NCBI RefSeq assembly: GCF_041146795.1
Contig: NC_135187.1
Location: 20,485,556 to 20,549,555, forward strand
DNA length: 64,000 nt
Source of the DNA: Maylandia zebra
Taxonomy: Eukaryota; Chordata; Actinopteri; Cichliformes; Cichlidae
Direction of reading: 5' to 3'
Position numbers and translations under genes: made by a program. The notes under the pieces are model-generated. The model did no database searches, was not told the DNA's origin, and saw only the letters and a list, made by a program, of their open reading frames with translations. Position 1 is the first letter of the stretch, and the number at the start of each line of letters is the position of its first letter. Shown here piece by piece: positions 2,840 through 62,000 of the stretch.

Positions 2840-4417
2840 CAAAGAACAAAATTTAATACGCTGAGGTAACTCCTCTGTTAAAAAAACAGAATCTCGATCC
2901 TAGCTCTGCTAGTAATTACCGACCTATTTCAAAATTGCCATTTGTCAGTAAATTACTTGAAAAAATTGTTGAAAATCAGTTCAGGTCTCTATTATGTAAA
3001 TTACAGATTCTTGACCCTTTTCAGTCTGGCTTTCAAAAGCAGCACTCTACAGAGACCGCTCTCTTAAGAGTCTATAATGATCTGTTAATGGCATCTGACG
3101 CAGGGAACTGTTCTGTGATCATTTTGCTTGATCTTAGTGCAGCCTTTGACACCATCGACCACAAAATCCTACTTAACAGGCTCAAGGTTTTGGCTGCTAT
3201 ATCTGGCTCTGCCCTAGACTGGTTTTCTTCCTACTTATCAGACAGGACCTTCTCTTTTAGGACTGATAGGTTCTCCTCTAACACTGCTGCCCTGACCTGT
3301 GGTGTCCCACAGGGCTCAGTTTTAGGTCCATTACTATTTTCTTTTTATATGCTTCCTTTAGCTAGTATCATTCAATCTTTTAGCAACCTGTCTTATCATT
3401 TTTATGCTGATGACATTCAGCTCCATATGTCCTTTAAGCCTCATCAGCTGGATAGGCTGTCCACCCTAGTCCAGTGCTTAACCCAGGTTTCTGATTGGCT
3501 TTCAAGCAACTACCTTGTTCTAAATACTAACAAGACCGAGACCATGATCATAGCTCCTCCTGAGCTACATTCTAAAATCAGTCAGGTTCTTGCCTCTTTC
3601 TGTCCATCTGTCAAGTCAAATATTCGAAATCTTGGAGTAATATTTGACTCTTCTCTAGGCCTTGACTCTCATGTAAAATCTTTGTCTCGTTCCTGTTTCT
3701 ATCATTTAAGAAACATATCTAAACTGCGACATATGGTTTCCTCAGCTGAACTGGAAAAACTCATTCATTCATTTGTGTCATCACGCTTAGATTACTGTAA
3801 TTCCCTGTTTACTAGCTTGGATAAATCATCTCTCTCTCGCCTCCAGACAATACAAAACGCAGCAGCCAGATTACTAACTCGCTCTACCAAGCGTGTTCAC
3901 ATCACTCCCATCTTATATTCTTTACATTGGCTCCCAATAGAGTTTAGAATTCGCTTTAAAATTCTTGTTTTAACATACAGAGCACTAAATGGCCAGGCTC
4001 CAGATTACTTATCCAAGCTTCTTTTAAAATACACTGCTGCTCGTCATCTCCGCTCACAGACTCAGAGTCTCTTAGTTGTTCCCCGTACACGATTGAAGAC
4101 AAAAGGGGACAGAGCCTTTCAGTCTGTTGCACCAAGGCTGTGGAACAGTTTACCACTACAATTACGTTTGCTTGACTCTGTGGATTCTTTTAAAAAACAG
4201 TTAAAAACTCTTCTGTTCAAACAAGCCTTTTGTTGATCTACATATTTTATTTTATTTTTTTTACATTATTTACATTTGATTTTTTACATTGTATATAATG
4301 TCTATTGATTTTATTGTTTATTTTAATATTTTAATATTTGTGTACAGCGCTTTGTGATTGCCTGTCTGCGAAAAGCGCTTAATAAATAAAGTTTACTTAC
4401 TTACTTACTTACTTACT
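2840..4417 (+). mobile_element. 5'-truncated L2/CR1-type non-LTR retrotransposon (LINE)
   Basis: The element carries the reverse transcriptase half of a LINE ORF2, a short 3' UTR with the phrase AAAAGCGCTTAATAAATAAA, and a terminal run of about six TTAC repeats (4394-4417). A GCGCTT-type hairpin followed by a short tandem repeat instead of a long poly(A) is typical of the L2 branch. The endonuclease half is missing, as expected from incomplete reverse transcription. Upstream of 2857 the reading frame seems to continue as a phenylalanine-lysine-tyrosine-alanine phrase but is broken by a one-base deletion near 2855. The exact 5' end and the target-site duplication could not be fixed by eye. Confidence 0.9.
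2857..4236 (+). CDS. LINE ORF2 fragment: reverse transcriptase domain, open to its stop
   Basis: The frame is open for about 459 codons and ends with TGA at 4234-4236. It opens with a SNYRPIS-like phrase, then shows the fingers motif QSGFQKQHSTETAL, the aspartate block LLDLSAAFDTIDH, the GVPQGSVLGPLLF motif and the catalytic YADD box. The C-terminal part has the NxAARLLT and LHWLPI phrases usual in L2/CR1 elements. The protein would normally copy element RNA at the target site. It lacks the apurinic endonuclease domain and a credible start codon, so this copy should not be independently mobile. The absence of any stop or frameshift in 1.38 kb suggests a young insertion. Confidence 0.9.
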   Translation, partial: YAEVTPLLKKQNLDPSSASNYRPISKLPFVSKLLEKIVENQFRSLLCKLQILDPFQSGFQKQHSTETALLRVYNDLLMASDAGNCSVIILLDLSAAFDTIDHKILLNRLKVLAAISGSALDWFSSYLSDRTFSFRTDRFSSNTAALTCGVPQGSVLGPLLFSFYMLPLASIIQSFSNLSYHFYADDIQLHMSFKPHQLDRLSTLVQCLTQVSDWLSSNYLVLNTNKTETMIIAPPELHSKISQVLASFCPSVKSNIRNLGVIFDSSLGLDSHVKSLSRSCFYHLRNISKLRHMVSSAELEKLIHSFVSSRLDYCNSLFTSLDKSSLSRLQTIQNAAARLLTRSTKRVHITPILYSLHWLPIEFRIRFKILVLTYRALNGQAPDYLSKLLLKYTAARHLRSQTQSLLVVPRTRLKTKGDRAFQSVAPRLWNSLPLQLRLLDSVDSFKKQLKTLLFKQAFC

Positions 4418-6350: not shown

Positions 6351-7439
6351 TATATCCTTTATTTAACCAGATAGAAGCCTCACTGAGATTACAAAATTCA
6401 TTTTTCCAAGAGAGACCTGGCAGCAGAAATTACAAGTATACCACATAACAATATAAAAAGTAAACGAACAAATACACCTGACATATATTACAAATTACAA
6501 GGCAAGTGAATGCAAACATCCGACTCCTACGCACTAACAAAACATCGCAAGAGAAACAGCAAAAGCAGTTTCACTGATCGAGAGAATTATTTTCTCTAAA
6601 TGCAAAGAGAGAAAAAAGGTCGCAGCCACTGCAGTGTTGTTAGAGAACTCCTATAGGCTGCATCATTTCTACCATGCAGATGCCTTTAATTGGAAGAGGA
6701 CGTGTGCACTTTCTTTATGATACACATGAACACAGAACAGCCATCACTGACTCTCAAAGCTCTGCCAGGATTACGGGACTGTAGAATTCAGGTGATCAGG
6801 TTTAATTAATACACACATAATTTGATCCAGCTTTTTCATAATTATCAATCATATAAAAACATGTAACATATTTACCTAAGGGTTCCTGAAAAGGGTATGC
6901 ATTCACTGGACACTTTAATAGGCACACCTTGCTAATGCCTGGGTTGGACCCGCTTTCACCTTCAGAACTGCTTAAATTCTTCATGGCAGATTCAACAAGG
7001 GGCTGGAAACATTCCTCAGGGATTTTGGTTCATGTTTATATGACAACATCACACAGTTGCTGCAGATTTGTTTGCTGCACATCCATAATGTGAGTCTCCT
7101 GTTCCACCACATCCACAAGGTGCTCTGTTAAACTGAAATCTGGTGCCTGTGGGGGCCGGTTGAGTGAACTGAACTGATTCTAGAAACCAGCTGAATTAAA
7201 CTTTGTGATCTATCATATGTACAGTGGGGCAAAAAAGTATTTAGTCAGCCACCGATTGTGCAAGTTCCCCCACCTAAAATGATGACAGAGGTCAGTAATT
7301 TGCACCAGAGGTACACTTCAACTGTGAGAGACAGAATGTGAAAAAAAAAAATCCATGAATCCACATGGTAGGATTTGTAAAGAATTTATTCGTAAATCAG
7401 GGTGGAAAATAAGTATTTAGTCAATAACAAAAATACAAC

Positions 7440-8462
7440 TCAATACTTTGTAACATAACCTTTGTTGGCAATAACAGAGGTCAAACGTTTACTATAGGTC
7501 TTTACCAGGTTTGCACACACAGTAGCTGGTATTTTGGCCCATTCCTCCATGCAGATCTTCTCGAGAGCAGTGATGTTTTGGGGCTGTCGCCGAGCAACAC
7601 GGACTTTCAACTCCCGCCACAGATTTTCTATGGGGTTGAGGTCTGGAGACTGGCTAGGCCACTCCAGGACTTTCAAATGCTTCTTACGGAGCCACTCCTT
7701 TGTTGCCCGGGTGGTGTGTTTTGGATCATTGTCATGTTGGAAGACCCAGCCTCGTTTCATCTTCAAAGTTCTCACTGATGGAAGGAGGTTTTGGCTCAAA
7801 ATCTCACGATACATGGCCCCATTCATTCTGTCCTTAACACGGATCAGTCGTCCTGTCCCCTTGGCAGAAAAACAGCCCCATAGCATGATGTTTCCACCCC
7901 CATGCTTCACAGTAGGTATGGTGTTCTTGGGATGCAACTCAGTATTCTTCTTCCTCCAAACGCGACGAGTTGAGTTTATACCAAAAAGTTCTACTTTGGT
8001 TTCATCTGACCACATGACATTCTCCCAATCCTCTGCTGTATCATCCATGTGCTCTCTGGCAAACTTCAGACGGGCCTGGACATGCACTGGCTTCAGCAGC
8101 GGAACACGTCTGGCACTGCGGGATTTGATTCCCTGCCGTTGTAGTGTGTTACTGATGGTGACCTTTGTTACTTTGGTCCCAGCTCTCTGCAGGTCATTCA
8201 CCAGGTCCCCCCATGTGGTTCTGGGATCTTTGCTCACCGTTCTCATGATCATTTTGACCCCACGGGATGAGATCTTGCGTGGAGCCCCAGATCGAGGGAG
8301 ATTATCAGTGGTCTTGTATGTCTTCCATTTTCTGATGATTGCGCCCACAGTTGATTTTTTCACACCAAGCTGCTTGCCTATTGTAGATTCACTCTTCCCA
8401 GTCTGGTGCAGGTCTACAATACTTTTCCTGGTGTCCTTCGAAAGCTCTTTGGTCTTGGCCAT
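7440..8462 (-). CDS. Tc1-family transposase, full length, DD34E triad intact
   Basis: This 340-residue protein cuts and pastes its own element at TA sites. Residues 1-110 form the paired-like DNA-binding region with two helix-turn-helix parts and a GRPR-like linker (PRSGAPRK, about 56-63). The RNase H-like catalytic domain follows: WSDET gives D153, QHDNDPKH gives D244, and DLNPIENLW gives E279. That is a DD34E spacing, with the same numbers as Sleeping Beauty. A glycine-rich strip ([13 protein letters not shown]) lies between the first two acids. The start ATG at 8460-8462 gives the expected MAKTKELS beginning, and no stop or frameshift is present. Length and every catalytic position match active family members. 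Whether this copy still moves is inference, because its right terminal repeat is disrupted. Confidence 0.97.
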
Positions 8463-8808
8463 GGCGGAGTTTGGAGTCTTGACTGTTTGAGGCTGTGGAC
8501 AGGTGTCTTTTATATAGATGATGAGTTCAAACAGGTGCCATTCATACAGGTAACGAGTGGGGGACAGAAAAGCTTCTTACAGAAGACGTTACAGGTCTGT
8601 GAGAGCCAGAGATTTTCCTTGTTTGAGGTGACCAAATACTTATTTTCCACCCTAATTTACGAATAAATTCTTTACAAATCCTACCATGTGGATTCATGGA
8701 TTTTGTTTTCACATTCTGTCTCTCACAGTTGAAGTGTACCTCTGGTGCAAATTACTGACCTCTGTCATCATTTTAAGTGGGGGAACTTGCACAATCGGTG
8801 GCTGACTA

Positions 8809-9019
8809 CATCCAGAAATGCATATACTATTATATATTGTACATATATTTATTAGTTTCAGATGTAGCCATTCTTGTATCTTGCTTGTTTACATTATTGT
8901 ATTTTGCACAACTCTGTTGCTTGTGAAGCTCGCACACAAGAATTTCACTCACATGTGCTGTACCAATGTACCTGCACATGTGATGTGACAATAAAAGTGA
9001 TTTGATTTTGATTTGACTA
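8809..9019 (+). mobile_element. Short LINE/SINE 3'-end insertion inside the Tc1 right terminal repeat
   Basis: The Tc1 repeat reads GGTGGCTGACTA at 8797-8808 and resumes after a second TGACTA at 9014-9019 with AATAC. The 205 bases between are foreign and end in GTGACAATAAAAGTGATTTGATTTTGATT, a retroposon-type 3' tail of short repeats. TGACTA is therefore a target-site duplication of at least six bases. The body includes a TTTGCACAA...AGAATTTCACTCACATGTG phrase common in 3' ends of fish LINEs. No coding capacity remains. It was most likely inserted by LINE machinery in trans or as a heavily 5'-truncated copy. Confidence 0.8.
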
Positions 9020-29193: not shown

Positions 29194-30247
29194 GTCAGTC
29201 TGACTACTTGACGGAAAACGAAGGAAAAAATGAAGGATTTTGGCACCAACGCTAACAGTATGACTACAGCGTACAGCTGTAGTCTCTTTGTTGTCGCTTA
29301 GCTACAGGCAGTTTGCCTGCAAACCCCGACAGCAGCTTGTTGTGAATGTATGAATTTAAAGGCCGACAACTTCACGGCGGCTTCTACATATGGATAAATT
29401 AATTTGTCTGCCAGGGGTTAAAAAACAAAACAAATAAGCACAACGTGTTAGCTTAATTGTTCATTCGTGTAGCTAGAACTCAATTTTTTTCTGGTTGTTG
29501 TGATGCTCTTCTTCTGCTTCTTCTTTTTCCGTCTTTTTCGCCTTCTTCTGTGGTCTGCACAGAATGTCGTAATGCTGCCCCCTGTAGCCTGGACATAAAT
29601 TGTATTACAACTCTGAGACCAAGAAGAGTTGTGAAATAAGCCCAGCAGTTCCCTTTGGTTTTCATAAACAGCAGGTGTGAATAAAACATAAAAGTTTCTC
29701 TATAGCTCTATAGTACAGTTGGGATACAGCTAATTTCACCTGGATGAATAATATGTCAGTGTCTCCGAGTGACTGTAGAAAAGGCTGTTTCTTACAGTCA
29801 TCGGTGTCTCCAGAATAGGTGGGACGATATATATAGGTTATAATAGGTTGTGGACTAATTATAATATAGGGGGTTTTTTTTAGTCAGGGTGTTTGTTTAC
29901 TGCACTAGTTATTGCTCTGGTTGGACTTTAGCTGTATATTAACTGTATATTTCTGCGAACTCTGTTATTCAGAAAAAAACTGTAGTTTTATATCCTATCG
30001 GACAGGCATATCAAAGCTGCTTCAGCTTTGCGGCATGCAAAGCACCGCAAAGCGCATGCGCTGTAGTAGCTCACCTGTCGTTGCACCTGTTGAATTCTTA
30101 TCTGTACAACAATGTAAAATACAAAACCAGGAAGCTTTTCTTTCCTCGACTCTCATGACGCTGACGTCACGGAGAATGCGGACTACAATTGCCTTGTTAG
30201 AAATAAGTGACCTGAAAACAAACTGAGAGGCCACAGAGCCGCAGAAA
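29194..30247. promoter_or_regulatory. Divergent promoter between klhl7 and an unnamed gene, with NRF1 and CRE sites
   Basis: The two start codons are about 1.05 kb apart. A perfect palindromic NRF1 site GCGCATGCGC is at 30052-30061 and a perfect CRE TGACGTCA at 30162-30169, 79 bp before the downstream ATG. Both motifs are typical of constitutive promoters. The middle part (29400-30000) is AT-rich and shows no further gene. Confidence 0.65.
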
Positions 30248-31546
30248 ATGTTCCGTTTATGCTGTTGCTGCTTCTCTGGCGATAACTCCAACAACAATGA
30301 GGTATGTGTTTATGCGCTGCACTGGGTTTTATGGTGTCTTTATAAGAGCGTAAAGTGGCTTCCTTAGAGTTTAGCAAGGAAACTATACAGCTTCGCTTCG
30401 CTCGATTTTTCCATTGCAAGTAAAATGATGGGATCCTCTTAACTGCTGTAATGTAGCATTACTGGGTCTTCACCTAATAATCTACTTTTGTTGGGGATTT
30501 GAAACATAATTATTATAATATTGAAGCTGAGTTTATGATCACATCGTTGCACTGGTACACGTGATCAAATATGCCTAATATTTGTGGCACAAGAAGAAGA
30601 AAAGAAAAACACTATGTAAATAAAACCAACTTTCGCTGTTTCAGAGACGGCCTCTCCTGGATTCCCGACGCTCTGAAGTCAATAGTGCTGAATCCGCCAG
30701 GCTGAGCCGTTCATCAGCGGACAGCGGCAAGTCATCTCAGACTTTTTTTTAATACTTATAAAAATGACAGATGAATTTGATCCACCTGTTTTTCTTGCTG
30801 TGTTACTCGTGCTTTCTTTTTTCTTTTTTTCTACTCAGATGCACAGACTGTGAGACGGATTGGACGGCTGGTGATGAGGCGAGTGTGCGTGCCTGAGCTG
30901 GATCAGAGGTTTTTGGAGATGGCTGAGACCTTCAACAAGCAGCAGGAAGGCTACGAGGCCATGGTGCAGCATATAAGAAACCTCCAGCAGAGCTGTGACT
31001 GTTCCCATGATGACACCCTTGCTTTTGTTCAGTGTTTGGGGAAGATTAGAGAGGAGCAGGGTGAGTGACACATACTTTTTAACACACGCTTCATGGTAGC
31101 TGATGCCTCACTCCCTCCCCCATTTTTTAAAAACTCATGTACTTCCAGAACCAACATACCAGGTCTCTCTTAAGATGAAGGGCTACGACTTCTTCCTCAG
31201 TGCGGTTCCTGTGTGGTCTGAGGGCGCAGGTGAGGGGAAACCGCTTCCTCCACGTCTGCAGAGGGCTCAGAACGAACTGAAGGGTGCTTCTGACAGCACC
31301 AGGATGACCATTTCAAAGGGGACCACCCTTCAAGAGCTTATCGGCTGGTTGCTCCGTAGCCATGATAAAATGGCTGAGCAAGTGAAGAAGGCAGCAGAAA
31401 CTTACCAAGAACAAGGGAGACTTAGTGAGAACCTGGAGGAGAACATGAGGGAAGTGAGGAGGGCCAAAGAGTTGTCTCAAGGATACAGACAACAGGCCAC
31501 GGCAGTTCTCACTGAGGCTGCACAGATAGCAGGGGCTCAACTGTAG
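30248..31546 (+). CDS. Unrecognised 251-residue protein, N-terminal cysteine cluster, 4 exons
   Basis: I do not recognise this gene. Exons 30248-30301, 30645-30726, 30839-31060 and 31149-31546 total 756 nt and close in frame. The first and third introns are GT-AG. The second fits only with a GC donor (GCAAGT at 30727) and an AG acceptor at 30837-30838, because the nearby GT would break the frame. The protein begins MFRLCCCC (C5-C8, likely palmitoylated; no Gly2, so no myristoylation), followed by ERRPLLD (18-24), an acidic/arginine dileucine-type sorting phrase. Residues 25-48 are serine-rich; 49-120 are helical with heptad-like spacing (RRIGRLVMRR, ELDQRFLEMAETF). 121-175 contain a proline-rich loop. 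178-250 are strongly helical and charged, probably a coiled coil. The N-terminus resembles LAMTOR1 (cysteine pair plus dileucine) in layout only. Membrane or lysosomal attachment is inference. Confidence 0.85.
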
Positions 31547-31954
31547 TGCACATATCTTTCTAAAAGTTTTGTTTTAACCGACAGCAATGCGGAAGTACAG
31601 CATTTCCATGGGTTATCTCCATAAATATCCCCACCAATCGTATCAAGACTGTCATATCTCCTTTTATTATTTGATTATAATAGAAACGTATTCTAACACT
31701 TTAAATAGGTTTAAAGTGGTTTTTTTTATTTTGCGTCATTACATTCTGTCATATGTATTGTTAGAGTGGTAGATGCTCATACTTAACCTGGTTTAAGGTT
31801 CTAATAATGAACTCTCGATGTGTGTAACTGTGTAAAAGCCAAAAGCTCAAGCTTCAAACTGTGTTAAATATTCCATTTTAGAATTTTTTTTCTTTTAGAT
31901 TTAGCTTTGATGATGTTCTTCAATGTAAATTGTGAAGACTTTGAATATATCTGT

Positions 31955-32400
31955 GTATCTACAGTGCATAATGCCATCAAAGGTTTCAGAGAATCTGGAC
32001 AAATCTCTGTGCACAAGAGACAAGGCTGAAAATCTGAATGCACGGGATTAAACGCACAGTCCTGTCATGGAAATCACTACATGGGCTCATGAAACACTTC
32101 TAGAAATTATTGTCTGTAAACATGCGTTGCCATGTCATTCACAAATTTAAGTTAAAGGCGTATCATGCAAAGAAGAAGCCATATGTGAACATGATCAAAA
32201 AACCCTGCTGTCTTCCCTGAGGCACTTAACCTGGACTGAGGCAATGTGGTCAGACAAATCAAATCAAAAACAGGAAAGCTCCATCCTCTGGACTAAAGAG
32301 ACAATTGTTACCAGTGCTCAGTTCAAAAGTCTGCATCTCTGGTGGTATGAGGATGTATGAGTGCTGTGGAATTGGCAACTTGTGCAGTTGAAAATGAGCA
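31955..32400 (+). pseudogene. Relic of a Tc1-type transposase gene
   Basis: The segment from CAGTGCATAATGCCATCAAAGG through CATGGAAATCACTACATGGGC and GTGGTCAGACAAATCA reads like the first half of a Tc1 transposase (helix-turn-helix to the first catalytic Asp block, WSD) with many stops and deletions. After about 32340 the similarity fades. The family differs from the intact Tc1 at 7222-9039. It is inert. Confidence 0.6.
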
Positions 32401-59055: not shown

Positions 59056-62000
59056 AACAACCCAAAAGCCCTCAAGCAGTCAGCAACAAAACGGGGTCTG
59101 AATTTTAAAGGCGAAAGGTTATCTCTTTATCTTACAAGAAGACCCAAAACACATTGCTTGTCTGTATGTAAATCAATAAGATTTCAAAATTGCCCAAAAC
59201 GGCAAGTTTACTGATATTGATATATCTGGTATAGGCCAATATTGGCTCTTATTTGTTGCCCACTCGCAAACATAACGCCAGCGGTGGAACCCTCCTTGAG
59301 GTTTTTAGAAAAAGGGAAGGATGATGGTTTATCATGGCATTTACCACACATAGAGTTGATTGGGTGGCCTGCCCAAGTAAATTAACAGACCCCTGGTATA
59401 TTTTCTGACTCATATTTTTTTTTAATTTTTATTCTTTTAAATTTGTGGACAGTCCCTTCACTCTTATTTTGAAAGTTAAGTTTATGCTAACCTGCTAGGA
59501 TTCCCATGTTGTGCCCCCACCTCCGCCACAAATGCATATCATTCTGTTTGCAGCACTTTGCTGACTATGCGAGTTGAGTTCCCTTCTGCTTTAGTGATGT
59601 AAACTGTGACCTTGTGTGCCTTACGGGTAACACGTCCCTGTGGTAGTAGATTCAAAACAGTTTTTCTTCAGACATTTCTGTGATCCTGAAATAGCTGGCT
59701 GTGGTTTGAAGGAGTGTTGGGGAAGACCTGTGCATCACTGTATTTGGGAGCTTTGATGGGGAAGTTGAAACTTTTGCATGGCTGTGGTTTGGATTATGTG
59801 GGGGAAGTTGAGACTTGTGCATGTGTGACCATACGCCTTAAGAGATTCCTCTCAGTATATTGGAAACACCAACAGTGATGTCACACTTTCTCTCATTTCC
59901 CTCTTGCTGAGCCTTTTCTGCATGTGCAACTCATTTACTTGAGGAAGAATAGTTTTAAATTAAATACATGCTGCTGTTGGGTTACCACCATTTTCTATAT
60001 ATTTCAAGCAAGTTAAACAACTAGTATATTAAATGATGAATGTTTTCACGCTATGGCTATACCACATATATTGTGTCAGATAATATTACGCAAGAGCAAG
60101 AGTTGTGCGTCAGCCTCTGATGACAATTTGGTGCCTAAACATGGGGCTACTTCAACAGCCTCCAACATCTTTGCAAAAGATACAAGAAAACTGAAAGAGG
60201 CAAACGTGTTTCACCACTTGAGGCAAAAACATAGTCGATATGCACTACGAGGCTACAAAGGAGATACTAGCAGCTGGTGATGTACCACCCAAATGGAAAA
60301 CCATTTACAGCACTGCTGGAGCGATCACTAGTTAAGACAGGAAGAGCAAGTGGTGTTGTGAAACAAACTGAAGTAGTTACATGGTGGAAAAGCAGGACTT
60401 GACAGTGGGGGAGTCTGGCTAGGCCACTCCATGACCTTAATATGTGTCTTTAGCCCCTCCTTTGTTGCCTTGACAGAATGTTTTGGGTCATTGTCATGCT
60501 GGAAGACCCACCCACGACTCATCTTCAGTGTCCTGGCTGAGGGAAGGTGGTTCTTTTCCATGATTTTACAGTACATGGCCTTGTTCATTGGACCATCAAT
60601 GAAGTGAAGTTGTCCTGTACCCTTGGCAGAAAAACATCCCCAAGCATAATGTTTCCACCTCTGTGCCTGACTGTGGGGATGGTGTTCTTTGCTTCATACT
60701 CAACATTTTTCTTCCTCCAAACACAGCAGGTCGAGTTGACGACCACACCACTTTCTCCTAAACCTTCTCTGAATAATTTAGATGTTCACTGGCAAACCTT
60801 AGACTGACCTTTAGATGTGGCCTCTTGATGCCAGGAGCGTCTGTAATTGATTGGCTGTGTGGCATACAGAAGACATTCTGTGGGAGCCCGAATTCTGGAT
60901 GGGTTGTAGGGGATCAGCATCACGGGCTGCTTTTGTGCTTACATTTAACTTAGGCTGTGTCACTGGTGTTGCACCATAATACTGCTGCTGCTGCGGCACC
61001 ACCTTTTAATAAATTCACACTTCAGATTAGGAAGTGTGTCATCAATGACAGCTCAGTGGGAAATGTCTATCATTTGCTTCCACTTGTGATTGCTGCTGCC
61101 TGCAAGCTGCAAGTGGAGCAAAAAAATTTTTTTCTACATTTCAGAAATCTTGTTACGGAAAACTTTCTTGAAATATCGTGATGTAATTTGAAGGCTACGT
61201 GGCCCATCCCGGTTTCACACACGAATGAATACCTTCCTGCACTTAGCTCAAATCAGGACACTCTGGATCAGAAACATTGGTTAAGGCGAGGGTGCTGAAG
61301 GGGTCGAAGCATACAGGAGCTGTAAAGTTGGTGACGATTTCACCGGACACCTACGTGTTCTGTTATCACATGGAAACAATCACTCTGACTTTGCACTGGA
61401 TAAATGGCCTGTATTTGTATAGCGCTTTACTAGTCCCTAAGGACCCAAAAGCGCTTTACACATCCAGTCATCCACCCATTCACACACACACACACACTCA
61501 CACACTGGTGTTGGCAAGCTACGTTGTAGCCACAGCCACCTTGGGGCGCACTGACAGAGGCGAGGCTGCCGGACACTGGCGCCACCGGGCCCTCTGACCA
61601 CCACCGGGCAACGGGTGAAGTGTCTTGCCCAAGGACACAACGACCGAAACTGTCCAAGCCGGGGCTCGAACCGGCAACCTTCCGATTACAAGGCGAACTC
61701 CCAACTCTTGAGCCACGATCGCCCCACGATAGATTCTGATACACCCGTATGTAATTAAACTTAGACACAGTGATCACCTGACGGGTCTAAACAAAACAGC
61801 CAAAGAAATCAGGTTTTACCCTTGATATTAGGAGAGTGGTAACAGGAGGCTATTTTTCGCCTTCTGGGATCCTCTTATCTTTTTTTTTGGAGAATGTCTT
61901 GCGTCAGGCTCAACTACTTCCTTGACTTTAAATGAAGGCAGAAGTATTGATATCAGGGGATATGAATTTGTAGTCTTCTGCTGCTTGTGGAATGATCTGA

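Follow-up and report, generated by a model that had tools for sequence, protein, structure and literature searches.

Between positions 30248 and 31546 on the + strand, the window (the whole 64-kb stretch of DNA that was analyzed) harbors a four-exon protein-coding gene whose 251-residue product displays a run of four cysteines near its N-terminus, an acidic dileucine motif shortly thereafter, no transmembrane segment and no domain of a recognized Pfam family. Judged from its sequence, the gene would belong to a known functional kind, namely that of S-acylated peripheral proteins with an acidic dileucine, and not to a lineage. The features by which this kind can be recognized, i.e., a cysteine cluster, a nearby [DE]xxxL[LI] and the lack of a transmembrane segment, are all found in the protein.

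The four exons (Table 1) join into 756 bases, corresponding to 251 codons and a stop, and this joining bears out the coordinates, the frame, the length of 251 residues and the number of exons that had been proposed in the initial annotation; the four-exon gene is thereby confirmed. Introns 1 and 3 are of the GT-AG type. GC-AG introns, to which intron 2 probably belongs, have an uncommon type of donor with a frequency of about 1%. When 19 GT or GC dinucleotides were tested as donors for exon 2, six preserved the frame to the end, namely the GC at 30670, 30706, 30724, and 30727 and the GT at 30685 and 30709, and only the one at 30727 was judged by eye to be a good fit to the consensus. An early stop is generated when the GT at 30731 is used instead and also when exon 2 is skipped. 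An exon 2 ending at 30726, with its GC donor at 30727, thus appears the most likely from the sequence, while the weak in-frame GT sites at 30685 and 30709 would give a protein of 237 or 245 residues, so that this end is not proven. The choice of donor leaves both the cysteine run and ERRPLL unaffected, since they lie outside the part of exon 2 that is concerned.

Table 1. Features of the locus (positions are those of the window).
Feature	Positions	Strand	Remarks
CRE octamer, TGACGTCA	30162..30169		78 bases 5' of the ATG; single copy in the window; putative function
Exon 1, coding, MFRLCCCCFSGDNSNNNE	30248..30301	+	In-frame stop just upstream; donor GTATGT
C5-C8, putative S-acylation cluster	30260..30271	+	Read in the sequence; acylation inferred
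Exon 2, coding, starts with RRPLLD	30645..30726	+	3' end is the likeliest of six frame-keeping ends
RRPLL, forming with E18 (30299-30301) the acidic dileucine ERRPLL	30645..30659	+	Read in the sequence; adaptor binding putative
Intron 2, probable GC-AG, donor GCAAGT	30727..30838	+	Sequence and frame test of donors
Coding exon 3 (residues 46-119 and one further base)	30839..31060	+	All-helical in prediction, mean pLDDT 56.9
Exon 4, coding, including the stop	31149..31546	+	Predicted beta hairpin and two long helices, mean pLDDT 66.2
ATTAAA, first after the stop, candidate poly(A) signal	32047..32052	+	Sequence

Regarding the likelihood that such a frame arises by chance, a program joining up to four exons via donor and acceptor patterns found a longest spliced open reading frame in 30150-31650 of 251 codons on the + strand and of 92 codons on the - strand. 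In 200 dinucleotide shuffles, the longest frame found by the same program averaged 83 codons and never exceeded 194, and none of the shuffles reached 251 codons or more, a comparison that somewhat favors the gene, as the splice patterns were set with knowledge of its own sites. A stop-free run of at least 148 codons occurs in 46 of 1000 shuffles, so that single exons are not significant when taken alone. Codon usage, scored with 12 hand-picked stretches of neighboring genes as the training set, points in the same direction, the joined coding sequence having a log-odds score of 55.9 bits in frame vs. 20.1 to 36.1 bits in the five other frames. This score is carried by exon 3 (21.8 vs. at most 14.8) and exon 4 (25.9 vs. 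at most 22.1); in exon 1 a coding bias is absent, and exon 2 does not favor its own frame.

As indicated by Pfam domains, the gene is flanked on one side by - strand exons encoding BTB and kelch domains and on the other by + strand Hyccin exons, which we take to be klhl7 and hycc1/fam126a, respectively. The orientation of the BTB and kelch exons agrees with the head-to-head arrangement with klhl7 suggested earlier. A six-frame protein search of the fish's own 962-Mb genome (63 contigs) gave four matches among those listed, which are the four exons of the locus, and a DNA search of the same genome gave one among those listed, the locus itself; no paralog beyond the locus was found among the best-scored candidates. 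A second set of Hyccin matches is located on contig C16, and a copy of the gene is absent from four pieces of about 10 kb around it and from one piece beside the window. Relatives were also searched for in prokaryote genomes and viral contigs and none was found, as expected for a fish gene. Among the papers listed in the literature search, none dealt with a gene located in the interval from klhl7 to fam126a/hycc1, and fish genome annotations may well carry this one as an uncharacterized protein. The gene list given in a paper on the human locus comprises GPNMB, KLHL7, KLHL7-AS1, NUPL2, and a lncRNA, for an interval that begins at 23,145,089 (GRCh37) and need not span the gap between KLHL7 and FAM126A (PMC5522530).

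Upstream of the gene, the palindromic CRE octamer, which is separated by about 1 kb from the first exon of the klhl7-like gene, might serve both divergent genes. No Rfam family matched the window at gathering scores. Several mobile elements are found elsewhere in the window. A Tc1/Sleeping Beauty-type element (7239-8811) exhibits an uninterrupted transposase frame of 378 amino acids on the - strand (7443-8576), with HTH_SB, HTH_Tnp_Tc3_2, and DDE_3 domains, together with inverted repeats of 111 nt that are 97% complementary; considering the intact frame and the similarity of the repeats, the element is probably young. A LINE-like reverse transcriptase frame of 459 amino acids is located at 2857-4233 on the + strand (RVT_1, E 9e-35), and a shorter frame on the - strand (60328-60693) resembles, from the list of open reading frames, a fragment of a second Tc1-type transposase.

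The N-terminus of the protein, MFRLCCCCFSGDNSNNNERRPLLDSRR, has cysteines at positions 5 to 8 and a phenylalanine as residue 2, the latter being incompatible with N-myristoylation. The maximum hydropathy over 19 residues is 0.61, which indicates a protein without a transmembrane segment. [DE]xxxL[LI] occurs once in the whole protein, as ERRPLL at residues 18-23. The cysteine run and ERRPLLD are thus present as initially described, and the acidic dileucine matches the published consensus, which is reported to be recognized by AP-1, AP-2, and AP-3 (PMC5297682). Two probes reported for AP-1, ERQPLL and ERAPLI, are one and two letters away from ERRPLL, respectively (PMC11525306). From these motifs, which were read in this one genome, an acylation of C5-C8 and the binding of an adaptor by ERRPLL can be inferred.

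Searches for a family were made with the whole protein and with pieces of it, and no Pfam family reached its cut-off. The best matches obtained, besides the Snapin_Pallidin one discussed below, are DUF725, with an E of 0.044 when the whole protein is used and of 0.0065 when exon 3 is used by itself (16.9 bits vs. a cut-off of 22), and ERM_helical, with an E of 0.02 for the last 75 residues (15.4 bits vs. a cut-off of 40). Among the 177,635 sequences of solved structures, no match was found below an E of 0.08. Both searches uphold the earlier statement that the protein cannot be assigned to a named family. A similarity to the mitoribosomal protein mL52 was considered and rejected. It was picked by searches of the 177,635 sequences at an E of only 0.08-0.22, and its pairwise alignment score of 75 was reached by none of 2000 shuffles (mean 31, sd 5.8), the matched part of mammalian mL52 alone also outscoring all but 5 of 2000 shuffles; however, exon pieces of mL52 from the same species score like shuffles, 609 and 264 of 2000 reaching their scores.

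Structure models were generated exon by exon from the single sequence and are of low to moderate confidence. In the model of exon 4, the two helices extend over residues 180-208 and 215-246, with a break near 209-214, and the C-terminus is probably helical. The last 70 residues, for which a coiled coil had been proposed, are better regarded as two predicted helices, and the coiled coil itself is only partly supported by a heptad test (p = 0.006 over residues 179-245 and 0.054 over the 70 C-terminal residues).

Taking these features together, we give an even chance to the proposal that this single-locus gene encodes a soluble peripheral scaffold, which would be S-acylated and sorted to endosomes and lysosomes by AP-1 or AP-3. 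A membrane-bound DHHC enzyme would acylate C5-C8, and the acylated cysteines would tether the N-terminus to Golgi or endosomal membranes on their cytosolic side. There, ERRPLL, ten residues beyond the cysteines, could be read by AP-1 or AP-3, and the protein would be transported to lysosomes, late endosomes or lysosome-related organelles. Two domains, the first helical (47-119) and the second with the two long helices at its end (121-251), would be presented by a linker rich in serine (residues 24-46) and may recruit a partner complex, in keeping with a scaffold role.

The lysosome would be one of two reasonable locations, because a similar cysteine cluster is found in EFR3, at the plasma membrane. 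EFR3B is reported to be palmitoylated at C5, C7, and C8 and located at the plasma membrane, which indicates that such cysteines do not specify lysosomes (PMC11941745). By analogy, acylated C5-C8 could serve as a plasma-membrane anchor, with helices binding a signaling or lipid-kinase complex and with ERRPLL either idle or acting as an endocytic signal for AP-2, an adaptor that also reads [DE]xxxL[LI] (PMC5297682). Such an anchor, which we regard as the main alternative, albeit a rather unlikely one, would also be in line with the neighboring gene encoding a Hyccin protein, given that EFR3A is reported to bind FAM126A as well as TTC7 (PMC11661448). However, ERRPLL is a strong match to the consensus and its spacing from the cysteines is like that in melanoregulin. 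Moreover, gene neighborhood is weak evidence for a shared function in vertebrates.

It is improbable that the protein is helical and soluble and resembles a lipid-anchored one only by accident, its cysteine run being used for metal or redox chemistry or having no role. While additional cysteines at positions 62, 98, 100, and 111 would fit with this reading, as would the fact that the run is known from a single genome, the combination of motifs is difficult to obtain by chance: in 500,000 random N-termini of 30 residues, CCCC within the first 15 residues occurs 7 times and [DE]xxxL[LI] 16,980 times (3.4%), and the two are never found together. The frequency of [DE]xxxL[LI] taken by itself, on the other hand, speaks against the lysosomal proposal. 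The two long helices of the model, together with a weak signal for Snapin_Pallidin (PF14712) over residues 177-251 (E 0.048), could also be read as belonging to a fast-evolving and so far unrecognized subunit of the BLOC-1/BORC type that carries a lipid anchor of its own, i.e., to a known helical family involved in lysosome positioning or biogenesis. This is more improbable still, as the 14.5 bits obtained, which fall to 8.9 bits with the whole protein, lie far under the cut-off of 29.6 and helical sequences readily score so. Finally, it can be speculated, with a very small probability, that the gene represents a vertebrate family of acyl-anchored scaffolds not described so far, which fish would have retained and which mammals would have lost or in which it would have escaped recognition. 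Such scaffolds would bring a lipid-kinase complex to endolysosomes, an example being hyccin/TTC7, with hyccin encoded next door, a complex that EFR3 otherwise takes to the plasma membrane.

Should the scaffold be lysosomal, it would add one more uncharacterized protein to those reaching lysosome-related organelles through cysteine acylation combined with an adaptor signal, and the klhl7-hycc1 interval would be a place where fish and mammals may differ. Should this reading be wrong, an ordinary unnamed gene would be left, mainly of use for annotation. The presence of a hyccin gene next door, considered with the binding between EFR3 and FAM126A, is a coincidence of note.

With regard to known systems, PI4K2A is an acylated peripheral protein and offers a precedent for the dileucine step. 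Its resemblance to the unnamed protein extends to a dileucine motif linked to AP-3, which is reported to be needed for AP-3 and PI4K2A localization to the lysosomal compartment, and loss of AP-3 leads to an accumulation of PI4K2A on lysosomes (PMC7617826). A dileucine therefore need not mean delivery to lysosomes and can serve retrieval. Unlike the unnamed protein, for which no kinase family appears among the Pfam hits, PI4K2A is a lipid kinase. In EFR3A and EFR3B, cysteines clustered at about residues 5-8 are palmitoylated, in a position similar to that of C5-C8 in the unnamed protein, but EFR3 is an armadillo-like superhelical protein (PMC11941745). It is also much larger than 251 residues, and no EFR3 family is present among the Pfam hits of the unnamed protein.

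LAMTOR1 (p18, PF15454) displays a lipid site, an acidic dileucine and helices in the same order as the unnamed protein. The parallel between their layouts, drawn in the initial annotation, is nevertheless a weaker one: the succession of a cysteine cluster and a dileucine holds, whereas the Gly2 on which LAMTOR1 is reported to be myristoylated (PMC10940682) is replaced by Phe2 in a protein starting with MF, and no LAMTOR match is found in Pfam at E<=10.

As far as can be read from the sequences, melanoregulin offers a better parallel for this layout than LAMTOR1, as it harbors an N-terminal run of cysteines followed, about ten residues on, by E[KR]xPL[VL]. Two MREG-type genes are present in the same genome, at C4:29665247-29665932 and C16:35200740-35201085. 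In that of contig C4, the stretch that shortly precedes the first exon with an MREG match reads MGSAFNRFCMQFCCCCCVADDEEEEDEKQPLV, followed by a GTAAGA donor; this stretch, assigned by eye as a putative first exon, contains FCCCCC...EKQPLV, with five cysteines and a Gly2, where the unnamed protein has Phe2. With Gly2, five cysteines and EKQPLV, this melanoregulin may bear two kinds of lipid. The unnamed protein has no MREG (PF15812) match among the Pfam hits at E<=10, either as a whole or in pieces, and the resemblance is one of layout, not of descent. According to a review, the clustered N-terminal cysteines of melanoregulin are required for its association with the melanosome membrane, and its lysosomal location is lowered by 2-bromopalmitate, an inhibitor of palmitoylation (PMC11854935).
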